Assembly: GCA_947474565.1 (NCBI GenBank)
Contig: CANJIS010000013.1
Span: 1-60,121, forward strand
Source: Alphaproteobacteria bacterium
GTDB lineage: Bacteria > Pseudomonadota > Alphaproteobacteria > Micropepsales > Micropepsaceae
Direction of reading: 5' to 3'
Length of the DNA stretch: 60,121 nucleotides
The notes beneath the pieces were generated by a model. It saw only the letters and a list, made by a program, of their open reading frames with translations. It made no database searches and was not told the DNA's origin. Positions within the stretch are counted from its first letter, which is position 1, and every line of letters begins with the position of its first letter. The translations under genes were made by a program, and so were the position numbers. Positions 15,539 to 18,429 of the stretch are shown here, piece by piece.

Positions 15539-15554
15539 CGGTATTATAATACCG
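15539..15554. promoter_or_regulatory. 16-bp perfect palindrome upstream of rplM
   Basis: CGGTATTATAATACCG is a perfect, loop-free dyad 35 bases upstream of the rplM -35 element and one base from the target duplication of the IS. It looks like an operator for a dimeric regulator or part of an older promoter; no regulator can be assigned. Confidence 0.4.
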
Positions 15555-15555
15555 T

Positions 15556-15563
15556 GTGTTTTG
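15556..15563. repeat. Target-site duplication, left copy
   Basis: GTGTTTTG directly precedes the left inverted repeat and recurs at 17547-17554 directly after the right one. Eight bases is the usual duplication for IS1595-family elements. Confidence 0.93.
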
Positions 15564-15588
15564 GGCGATGTTACACTTGCCGTACCCA
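15564..15588 (+). repeat. Left terminal inverted repeat of the IS1595-family element
   Basis: The first 16 bases are identical to the right end read in reverse; the next nine match except at two positions. Confidence 0.92.
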
Positions 15589-15663
15589 GCCGCTAGGGGT
15601 ATGTAGGTGGCGCGCCATATCTATTTGGATGGTAGAGACCTTGAGCGCGACCAGAGGGTGCTC

Positions 15664-16325
15664 ATGCGGTTCCGTTTGACCTATCAGGGCGACCTACTCA
15701 GCAGCCAGCCGCCCAAAAACGGCGACCCGGATAGGCGCGGCCCTCACAAGCACGACATCCGGAGACATTTCCATAGACAGCTCAAGCAGTATTGGGAGAC
15801 CCATCGCTGGTTGAAAAACGCGTGGATGGATGGTGCTCACCACACCGTCTTGCCAGAGGGGCCTCCCGCGTATTTACGGCCAATCCACGGGAGAAACGGC
15901 CCATGTCCGCCGCTCTAGGCGAGATTTATGGGCACAACAATTATCAATTCACGCCTCTTGCTTGGAAAGAGTCTGAAACCACCTGCTCGTTGCGGTTTTT
16001 GGTGTTGCGGAGGGATGGCGACGCCGCAGTATCCGCTGGGAGGGACATCGATAATCGCATCAAGACTGTTATCGATGCCTTGACAGTTCCACTTCCGAAA
16101 TATGGCTCGCCGCTCGGTATGGATGGCAACCCATTGCCGCCGCAGGACGGCGAAACGCCGCTATTCGTGCTCTTGGACGACGATAGACAGGTCACCCACC
16201 TTGAAGTGGAGACTGACGCGCTGTTATCCGCGCCAGACGGGTCAAGCGATGCCTACGTTCAACTGAGCGTGCTGGTAGAAATCAGGCCCTATCACACCAA
16301 TATGTTCAACCTCAGCTTTGCTTAG
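15664..16325 (+). pseudogene. RusA-like crossover-junction nuclease, IS passenger gene, frameshifted
   Basis: ATG 15664 (MRFRLTYQGDL), preceded by AGAGGG, opens a frame ending at 15918. The frame ending at 16325 continues the protein with GRDIDNRIKTVIDAL and LLDDDRQVTHLEVET, the spaced aspartates of RusA-type endonucleases. Total length of 662 bases is one short of a multiple of three, consistent with loss of one base near 15885-15903. Alternatively the second part starts independently at ATG 15903, which has GGGAGA seven bases upstream and overlaps the first frame by 16 bases. RusA enzymes cut Holliday junctions. A role in transposition is speculative. Confidence 0.72.
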
Positions 16326-16449
16326 GTTTGGCGACCTTCTCAAATGCCTTTGGGTCGTCACTGGCGCCAACTTCCTTGGCCATGTCTTTGAACCGCTTGT
16401 GCCGCTCGGCGTCTGTCAGCTTGGTTTTTTCGGGCTTCTCTTTTGCCAT
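16312..16449 (-). CDS. Small basic protein inside the IS1595-family element
   Basis: A 45-codon frame from ATG 16449 encodes a Lys/Glu-rich soluble peptide beginning MAKEKPEKTKLTDAERHKRF and containing KDMAKEVGASDDPKAFEKV. The pattern LTDAERHKRF with a following amphipathic helix looks protein-like rather than random. It overlaps the end of the RusA-like gene by 14 bases tail to tail. A purine-rich AAGAAG lies before the start. The function is unknown; its place inside the element suggests an accessory gene of the IS. Confidence 0.6.
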   Translation of the reverse strand: MAKEKPEKTKLTDAERHKRFKDMAKEVGASDDPKAFEKVAKPKQS

Positions 16450-16475
16450 GACTTCTTACCCCAAAAGACGCGCTT

Positions 16476-16504
16476 AAACGGGGCCACAGTATAGCCCCGT
16501 TTTT
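16476..16504. terminator. Hairpin with T-run between IS genes
   Basis: AAACGGGGC (16476-16484) pairs with GCCCCGTTT (16494-16502) around a nine-base loop and is followed by further T residues. On the reverse strand it terminates the transposase transcript; the 45-codon gene begins 27 bases beyond it. Confidence 0.7.
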
Positions 16505-16544
16505 ACGCCAGCGAATAAATGCAGCGACTTGCTGCGTGAAAGTT

Positions 16545-17476
16545 TTAGGCTCGGCTAGTTGCTGCGTAGGTGAGACGCTTACCCTTCACGCCTTGCAGGG
16601 CGTTTGCGGCACGGCTCACGTCATCAATTCCAAGCTTCTCGCGATTGTTCTGGCGGAAGTCGAACTCAGCAAATAGCGGTCAAGGTGCTGCTCTCCGCAA
16701 TGCTGGTAGATGCCAACCATGCCGCGCTTAAAGACCGAGAAAAAGCCTTCAAGGGTATTGGTGTGGACCTTGCGGCCATTCTTGCCGTTGCGGACGTAGG
16801 TCTTGTTGTGATCCACGCTCTCATGCTTCAGGCCGGTATCGGTATAGATGCCGCTGCCATCGGTATGCAGGATGGTGCCGGGGAGCACGTTGCTTTCCAG
16901 AATGTCGATGATGGTCAACTTGGTGGCTTCCTTGACGCGCTGCGAGCGGATTTGACCGCCGCGCTCCACAAGGCAGACGACCTTCATTTTGTTGGCACCG
17001 CCGCGACGGAAGAAAATGTCCCGCTTGCCAGCCTGACGGCCAATGTAAGTCTCGTCCGCTTCCACAATCTTGCCCTTGCCGCCGAGCGGGCCAGCGTCAG
17101 CACCGGGAGCCATGGCTTCGCGGATGCGGTGACCAAGGAACCAAGCGGTTTTCATGGAGCAATTCAGCATCCGCTGGATCTGGCGGGTGCTGATGCCCTT
17201 CTTGCTGGCGCACATCAGGTGGATCACCTGGAGCCACAGGTGGAGGGCCAGATGGCTGCTTTCAAAGATGGTGCCCATGCGGACGGTAAAGGGCTTACGG
17301 CATGCGTAGCACTTATACAGGCCGATCCGGGTGGACTTGCCCTTCATGGCGCTGGACTGGCCGATAACCCCGCAATGGGGGCAGGAGCGCCCGTCAGCCC
17401 ACAGGTTGGCCTCCACATAGGCAAAGGCCGCTGCTTCGGACTGGAAGCGGGGGGCGTTCAGGACGGACTTGGCCAT
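16545..17476 (-). pseudogene. IS1595-family (ISXO2-like) transposase, frameshifted near C-terminus
   Basis: The frame from ATG 17476 has the N-terminal zinc ribbon (CPHCG, KCYACRK), then EADETYIG, LHTDGSGIY and HTNTLEGFFSVFKRG, the catalytic DDE-type residues of this family. It stops at 16616 after out-of-frame residues. Restoring one base between 16670 and 16671 gives TAT TTG GCT GAG and the family-like tail RYLAEFDFR...LQGVKGKRLTY ending at TAA 16545. The loss looks like one G of a GG pair. The catalytic core is intact, but about 45 C-terminal residues are replaced. Confidence 0.88.
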
Positions 17477-17521
17477 TTGGGGCGGCTTTCAGGATTACCC
17501 CTAGAATCTAGGCCTTGGGCT

Positions 17522-17546
17522 TGGGTATGTCAAGTGTAACATCGCC
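17522..17546 (-). repeat. Right terminal inverted repeat of the IS1595-family element
   Basis: Reverse complement of the left end at 23 of 25 positions. The transposase start codon lies 45 bases inside. Confidence 0.92.
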
Positions 17547-17554
17547 GTGTTTTG
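17547..17554. repeat. Target-site duplication, right copy
   Basis: GTGTTTTG, identical to 15556-15563. Confidence 0.93.
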
Positions 17555-17835: not shown

Positions 17836-18429
17836 TCAGCGCAAAAACGGGCCTGAAATCCAGGAGACCAGCGAGACCCGCCGGCCCGCCGTGATCGCGC
17901 TGACCCGGTGCAAGGCATAAGACGGGAACAGGATCACGGCGCCCCGCTCCCGGGGCGCGGTTTCGATATGGGCTGAGGACCGCAGCTCCAGATCGCAGCC
18001 TTCATAGTCGGCGGGATCGCTGAGCTGCAGCACCAGCGAGAGTTTGCGCGGCACCGGCGTGACGGTGGCATGATCGACATGCCAGTCGTAATGGCCGCCT
18101 TCCGCCGTCTCATAGACGGTGTATTGCAGCTGCTCGGCCATCTCGCCGATGTCGAGCCGGTAGAATTGCTGGTTCAGGTGATAGGCTATGCGAAACAGCT
18201 TGTCATAAATTCAGTGGGTTTCAGGCCGGTTGCCGATCCAGGCGGTGCGGGTGACGCGGATATTCTCATAAGACGCTTCCCGGCTTTCGCCGTAGATAGC
18301 CGCCTTCTCGTGCTCCAGCTTTTCGCCGAAGGCGATGATGGCATCCAGCTCTTCCGGTTTGAAGCCGCCGCTCCAGACCGCGAAAGGCTGCACCGCCCGC
18401 AAATGCCGTACTGTTTCATCCATGCCCAA
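17836..18429 (-). pseudogene. Fe(II)/2-oxoglutarate dioxygenase with in-frame TGA
   Basis: One reading frame from ATG 18429 to 17836 would encode about 197 residues but has TGA at 18211-18213, between PETH and IYDKLF, where a TGG Trp codon is plausible. Downstream the prolyl-hydroxylase-type core is intact: HYDWHVD (iron ligands), a distal His in ALHRV and the 2-oxoglutarate Arg in RRVSLVSW. It resembles PKHD-type hydroxylases such as YbiX. A one-base G-to-A change explains the stop; a sequencing error cannot be excluded. ATG 18141 might yield a C-terminal fragment retaining the iron site. Confidence 0.85.

Follow-up and report, generated by a model that had tools for sequence, protein, structure and literature searches.

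At positions 15564 to 17546 of the window, that is, the whole 60,121-nt stretch of DNA that was analysed, lies an insertion sequence of the IS1595 family carrying, besides its transposase, a gene for a predicted RusA-like nuclease and a gene for a 45-residue protein. This element is probably one copy of a cargo-carrying IS1595 chassis with an exchangeable slot, into which the RusA-like gene has been captured repeatedly as cargo, and transposition takes place without need of the nuclease. The chassis would comprise a DDE transposase enclosed by two inverted repeats and joined, in many relatives, by a small protein, modelled with low confidence as two helices; the space from the small gene to the far repeat would be occupied by a variable cargo gene, usually convergent to the transposase, and the transposase would move chassis and cargo together. 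The RusA-like cargo may be kept as a nuclease of the defence, competition or addiction type, or for DNA processing, and presumably persists by helping the host or the element. The family is ordinary, and it is its design that is under-described. The question shifts from a single odd insertion sequence to a widely shared minimal-transposon design, with a constant core and a cargo slot that is refilled, in many cases with genes of nuclease, methylase or toxin-antitoxin type.

Structure and state of the window element

Both ends of the element have been placed exactly, at 15564 and 17546. The left terminal inverted repeat, on the cargo side (15564-15588, + strand), and the right one, on the transposase side (17522-17546, - strand), agree at 23 of the first 25 positions, and a perfect 8-bp target duplication, GTGTTTTG, flanks the element on both sides (15556-15563 and 17547-17554). 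From simple calculations, the chance that two given 25-mers reach an identity of at least 23/25 is p ~2e-12, and that of an 8/8 duplication is 1.5e-5. The transposase ORF (286 aa; 16616-17476, - strand), comprising a zinc ribbon and a DDE domain, matches PF12762 (DDE_Tnp_IS1595, E 9.6e-26) and PF12760 (E 2.5e-11) in Pfam and the IS1595 model NF033547 in NCBIfam (E 6.4e-51), while the 45-residue protein is encoded on the same strand at 16312-16449 and recurs beside IS1595 transposases both with and without RusA-like cargo. The base-exact ends, the repeats and the duplication described in the initial annotation are therefore confirmed by the sequence and its IS1595 transposase by Pfam and NCBIfam; the ORF of 45 residues and the pattern of aspartates that it pointed out are both present as well. 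The element belongs to the IS1595 family, of which it has the transposase type, the N-terminal zinc ribbon, the inverted repeats and the 8-bp duplication, and occurs as a single copy in the 2.18-Mb draft genome (39 contigs). It may be of the ISNwi1-like type, and would share with that subgroup the terminal type GGnnATnnTA, the 8-bp duplication and the presence of passengers.

Siguier, Gagnevin and Chandler are said to have described in 2009 IS1595 'transporter IS' with passenger genes. Passages of PMC3129680 record IS copies whose passenger genes have no relation to transposition, and passages of PMC5704250 name tISCpe8, a lincomycin-resistance element, and MTnSag1, both mobilisable, and suggest a replicative, circle-forming mechanism; the corresponding passages of PMC3004938, PMC7371123, PMC6209633 and PMC7031236 hold nothing further on IS passenger genes. 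Like tISCpe8 and MTnSag1, the window element combines a DDE transposase, inverted repeats, an 8-bp duplication and an extra gene. Unlike in these two elements, extra DNA is found here in every bounded copy, often with a small protein and sometimes with RusA-like cargo. A literature search, mostly of non-subscription papers and covering titles, abstract starts and passages, returned no report of RusA linked to IS1595, and the RusA combination was likewise unreported in a search of the same scope for IS1595 with cargo, anti-phage genes or a palindromic target.

The initial annotation considered the element complete, a description that does not hold for its coding capacity, as a frameshift interrupts both the RusA-like gene and that of the transposase. 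From 15664 on, the first third of the RusA-like gene matches the beginning of L029, an intact relative, and remains colinear with it in one frame (15664-15918, + strand; the longest ORF over this part starts at 15607), and from ~15900 on it continues in another frame, which encodes the C-terminal catalytic part (15900-16325, + strand), recognised by alignment and by conserved residues (DIDNRIK ... LLDDD). The 177-aa RusA ORF originally listed (15792-16325) corresponds to the C-terminal part only, with a spurious start. Among the 82 RusA-like relatives extracted, all are single ORFs of 183-235 aa with the exception of the fragments L012, L057 and L081. Similarly, in an alignment to L133, an element from the same genus, the transposase match ends at RYL and the conserved C-terminus continues in another frame (about 16545-16670, - strand), whereas the other 11 transposase rows aligned reach the conserved C-terminus. 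The split of the transposase frame bears on activity and leaves the family membership unaffected. Since neither break sits in a long homopolymer, the sequence favours a true decay of both genes, and, because both large genes are split, the window copy is probably dead.

The scores against RusA (PF05866) in Pfam were 14.1 bits for the window protein, 14.7 for that of L076 and 13.8 for that of L007, all below the cut-off of 22.8, and no Pfam RusA match was obtained at E 0.1 for L008, L047, L043 and L006; six homologues found no match in PHROGs and PADLOC, and a PDB search with the sequence gave nothing relevant. Fold prediction, which the initial annotation had proposed, was carried out on the L047 homologue with AlphaFold2 (pLDDT 88.5) and led to the RusA fold: structural alignment of the model gave Z-scores of 8.3, 8.1 and 8.0 with the RusA structures 1q8r, 2h8c and 2h8e, over 106-109 residues, against 4.6 for the best unrelated entry. 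This similarity emerged only in the second alignment after Foldseek, which by itself gave no match at E 0.001 and no RusA entry among the best 50. Besides the fold, the cargo family has in common with the RusA endonuclease the D-x-D-xxx-K motif plus a further D. In fact, D113, D115 and K119 are conserved in 83/83 RusA-like rows and D154 in 82/83, with one gap, and all four are conserved in the 22/22 rows linked to a transposase; the first motif was favoured by the search patterns, from which D154 was absent. We take the counterpart catalytic residues in E. coli RusA to be D70, D72, K76 and D91. The cargo family differs from RusA in its length (183-235 aa versus 109-120 residues in the solved chains), in its large insertions, with 16-17% identity to those chains, in a Pfam score of ~14 versus 22.8 bits and in having no PHROG match. 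The cargo is thus RusA-like in fold and in catalytic-type residues, and the initial assignment to the RusA-like nucleases is upheld even below the Pfam cut-off, and the protein may cut branched DNA as RusA does, including Holliday junctions. In the five RusA-like pairs tried, dN ranged from 0.23 to 0.35, with synonymous distances not computable and taken as saturated; one of these pairs (L020/L058) has only one member beside a transposase. An uncurated RusA-like family is now flagged for testing.

Recurrence and exchange of the cargo

A profile scan of 84,980 genomes revealed 143 RusA-like relatives, the best 80 of which were analysed, with L003, L004 and L005 treated as the loci L047, L008 and L012 and counted once. 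Of the 80 loci, 21 have an IS1595 transposase within ~2 kb, a count that excludes L033, with a weaker transposase match 2.5 kb off. Among the 21, 12 are RusA-bearing elements bounded by inverted repeats and 8/8 duplications (L008, L011, L018, L021, L024, L028, L035, L043, L046, L047, L064 and L076), the duplication of L011 being a run of T; together with the window element and with L338, a bounded RusA-bearing element from a virus-binned contig, the elements with perfect duplications amount to 14. Five of the 12 come from genomes titled Acidobacteria or a group within, and the others are titled Alphaproteobacteria or Proteobacteria, with the exception of L035, titled Micavibrio and belonging to the Bdellovibrionota in the taxonomy used. 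As a rule the RusA-like gene follows one end, and after it come the small gene, the transposase, which points the opposite way, and the other end; nuclease and transposase lie on the same strand in L032, L058 and L337. The transposase-nuclease pair is not an isolated accident, since it is found again in two phyla, enclosed by related inverted repeats. A search of viral contigs with the window RusA-like protein alone confirmed none, and a plasmid search gave two distant matches, with the transposase match absent from the fetched flanks. In the unbounded RusA-bearing locus L014, the small gene is separated from the transposase by a gene for an N6/N4 DNA methylase that includes an Mrr-like domain (L014:5412-7037, - strand).

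In the remaining 59 of the best 80 loci there is no adjacent transposase in the flanks examined. This figure is an upper bound for RusA-like genes outside such elements, because 11 of the 59 have less than 2 kb of downstream sequence and in five loci (L019, L023, L049, L061 and L081) end motifs of the IS1595 type lie next to the RusA-like gene with no adjacent transposase. One of them, L019:32-1199, is an element of 1,168 bp that has ends of this type and an 8/8 duplication, GACGCAAA, and contains the RusA-like gene alone.

When the transposase, rather than the nuclease, was used as the query, the RusA-like gene disappeared from the samples. The transposase profile matched 95 of 385 alphaproteobacterial genomes, and none of 60 loci from among the best-matching ones has a RusA-like gene in the DNA fetched; 36 of them are bounded by ends with 7/8 or 8/8 duplications, and all 36 contain 0.7-3.3 kb past the transposase match. 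Within the family that includes G452, the Acidicapsa genome in which L043 lies, the acidobacterial transposase was detected in 31 of 60 genomes, with a RusA-like gene in 0 of the 31 loci, 21 of which are bounded, all by 8/8 duplications. There are thus 57 bounded relatives that lack the RusA-like gene and hold other ORFs. The end-finder recognised 57 of 92 real transposase matches versus 1 of 183 mixed control loci, in which the left part of one locus was joined to the downstream part of another. Because of the 0/60 and 0/31 counts and of the extra DNA in the bounded copies, the IS1595 lineage is considered cargo-bearing as a rule, with the RusA-like gene as one rare cargo. The initial annotation proposed that, if recurrent, the combination would be a distinct transposon type, and the recurrence has been found (14 elements, two phyla), whereas a type defined by RusA has not (0/60 and 0/31). 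It had also reasoned that related IS1595 elements consistently lacking the gene, or a gene occurring mainly outside IS ends, would point to chance cargo, and both situations are largely what was observed, the former in the two transposase-led samples and the latter in up to 59 of 80 loci.

The other cargo was surveyed through 81 mechanically defined ORFs of at least 120 aa, a maximum of two per element, from the 57 elements, and 23 Pfam families were matched at 1e-5. More than one match was obtained for DUF3800 (4), GmrSD_N (3), N6_N4_Mtase, RelA_SpoT, HNH and GIY-YIG (2 each), and single matches for a cytosine methylase, NotI, N6_Mtase, Methylase_S, Panacea, HATPase_c_4, two HEPN types, PIN, XcyI, MethyltransfD12, PIN_10, DUF1828, DUF433, SLFN_AlbA_2, NYN and NA-iREase1; HsdM/S is counted among the recognisable cargo, and a second list of cargo families covers the first 25 of 150. 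We take nearly all of the matched families to be of nuclease, methylase or toxin-antitoxin types. As at least 49 of the 81 ORFs, some of which may be non-genes, have no Pfam match at 1e-5, the defence-like character of the cargo rests on a minority of ORFs.

Both phylogenies were of the quick kind, with 78 rows for the transposase, from which the fragments L013, L016 and L032 were absent, and 83 rows for the RusA-like protein. On the transposase tree the RusA label needs 9 changes, 8 of them forced by starred branches, versus a mean of 17.1 for shuffled labels; on the RusA-like tree the element label needs 13 changes, 7 of them forced, versus a shuffled mean of about 20, and a clade of 40 rows has no element member. 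A single clade was rejected with a p-AU of 9e-9 for the 22 RusA-like rows linked to a transposase and with a p-AU of 5e-5 for the 11 alphaproteobacterial transposases that carry RusA. The rejected single clades and the forced label changes therefore argue for repeated capture or exchange of the RusA-like gene, and the clustering of both labels beyond that of shuffled labels for some co-inheritance. Two pairs of sister transposases, each with a support of 100, illustrate the exchange: L011 has the RusA-like gene and L131 does not, and the transposases of the window and L133, from the same genus, are 75% identical and accompany different cargo.

The small protein mainly follows the transposase. 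Of the 8 other alphaproteobacterial loci with nuclease and transposase, 6 (L014, L018, L035, L046, L062 and L076) contain the family according to a model built on the window protein and three relatives, with L011 and L016 below that cut-off; among the 60 transposase-led loci of the Alphaproteobacteria, a widened model detected it in 13. The acidobacterial loci have a different small family, present in 23 of the 31 and usually adjoining the transposase on the other strand. A transposase lies within ~2 kb of at least 14 of 22 alphaproteobacterial small-protein matches, in a class draw of 372 genomes for the small protein and 385 for the transposase, and of 24 of 35 acidobacterial ones, counted by hand; L009 and L026 have the small gene beside a RusA-like gene and no transposase. 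Its presence with differing cargo and these counts indicate that the small protein, whose model consists of two helices (pLDDT 69, pTM 0.33), goes mainly with the transposase. It may act as a transposition factor or regulator, and for the former role it is a better candidate than the nuclease.

Possible roles of the nuclease

The proposal that the RusA-like protein serves as a nuclease against phages or plasmids, with the elements as single-gene defence vehicles, is a sharper form of the exchangeable-slot explanation. Restriction-modification, GmrSD, HEPN, PIN and Panacea cargo is found on the same chassis, and some homologues outside elements lie near TIR, AAA_15, AbiU2 or Hachiman genes. The six homologues compared, on the other hand, have no match in the defence database PADLOC, and the neighbours tried at six loci (L029, L030, L040, L065, L066 and L085) comprise one unmatched protein and five ordinary ones (enzymes, receptors or transporters). 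On balance this narrower proposal is plausible and short of even probability, and a defence-type function of the RusA-like gene, by analogy with the other cargo, is a good guess. In a broader formulation, held with similar reserve, the widespread IS1595 lineage of Alphaproteobacteria and Acidobacteria might be a dedicated carrier of defence and addiction cargo of one or two genes, with the RusA fold as a repeatedly captured, as yet undescribed defence nuclease and with at least one branch inserting at a fixed offset from operator-like palindromes. A refilled cargo slot would offer a simple route for the spread of defence-type genes.

The surroundings of the RusA-like genes outside elements were surveyed for 62 of 212 neighbour proteins from 21 loci and, among their families, for the first 25 of 53 and of 68. 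The neighbours are mixed and include two TIR proteins, one AbiU2-type HEPN, one Hachiman helicase, one AAA_15 and housekeeping genes. A general defence context of RusA-like genes was considered and rejected, the neighbours being ordinary or mixed. Homologues near TIR-domain or AAA_15/AAA_21 genes can be seen at L006:4469-5251, L048:5218-6366 and L042:2512-4023.

A different role was suggested by the initial annotation, in which the nuclease would be a transposition helper resolving branched intermediates of the element's own transposition. A junction nuclease would fit a replicative mechanism with such intermediates, and the association is repeated in two phyla, with catalytic-type residues invariant in all 22 transposase-linked rows. 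However, duplications of 7/8 or 8/8 are present in the 57 related elements that lack the gene, and a helper of this kind is therefore not needed. Furthermore, up to 59 of the 80 RusA-like loci, as well as the whole 40-row clade, are without an adjacent transposase, and close transposases differ in carrying the gene; the helper role is thus improbable. It is also unlikely that the gene is a neutral hitchhiker without a selected role, trapped at random beside the repeat, as the broken window copy and its absence from both transposase-led samples could suggest, since capture was repeated, with a single clade rejected by the trees, the catalytic-type residues are invariant, dN is only 0.23-0.35, and random capture would not be expected to yield mostly nucleases, methylases and toxin-antitoxin types among the recognisable families.

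Insertion sites

The window element starts 1 nt plus the 8-bp duplication past a palindrome, CGGTATTATAATACCG (15539-15554), located upstream of rplM and conserved in the genus, where it was found with at most 3 mismatches in 28 of 30 loci. An IS1595-type end at the same 9-nt offset is present in six genomes, namely those of the window, G009, G036, G001, G018 and G030 (loci L244, L249, L250, L252 and L253 besides the window). The complete element of G030, L133, differs from the window element in its duplication, ATTCAGCC, and in its cargo and is inserted in the opposite orientation, which implies at least two independent insertions at the rplM palindrome. The end in G018 is imperfect and is accompanied by transposase fragments, and no transposase was found at the rplM site in the DNA fetched from G009, G036 and G001, whose ends could be remnants of fewer events.

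Palindromes also occur near other insertions. L046 and L146, from the transposase branch of the window, and L172, from another branch, lie 3 nt from AT-rich palindromes identified by eye. The insertions of L047, L076, L147 and L177 are in the loop of GC-rich hairpins, and L047 and L076 have a common duplication (CTCGCGGG/CCCGCGAG). A hairpin score of at least 7 was obtained at 7 of 49 insertion sites versus 3.4% of control positions; a hairpin loop as a general target was rejected, as the enrichment is confined to the strong end, with an overall p of 0.06. Finally, the gene adjoining the window element (17836-18423, - strand), putatively encoding a 2OG-Fe oxygenase-like protein, has an in-frame TGA at ~18211-18213, where the congener G009 has a Trp.
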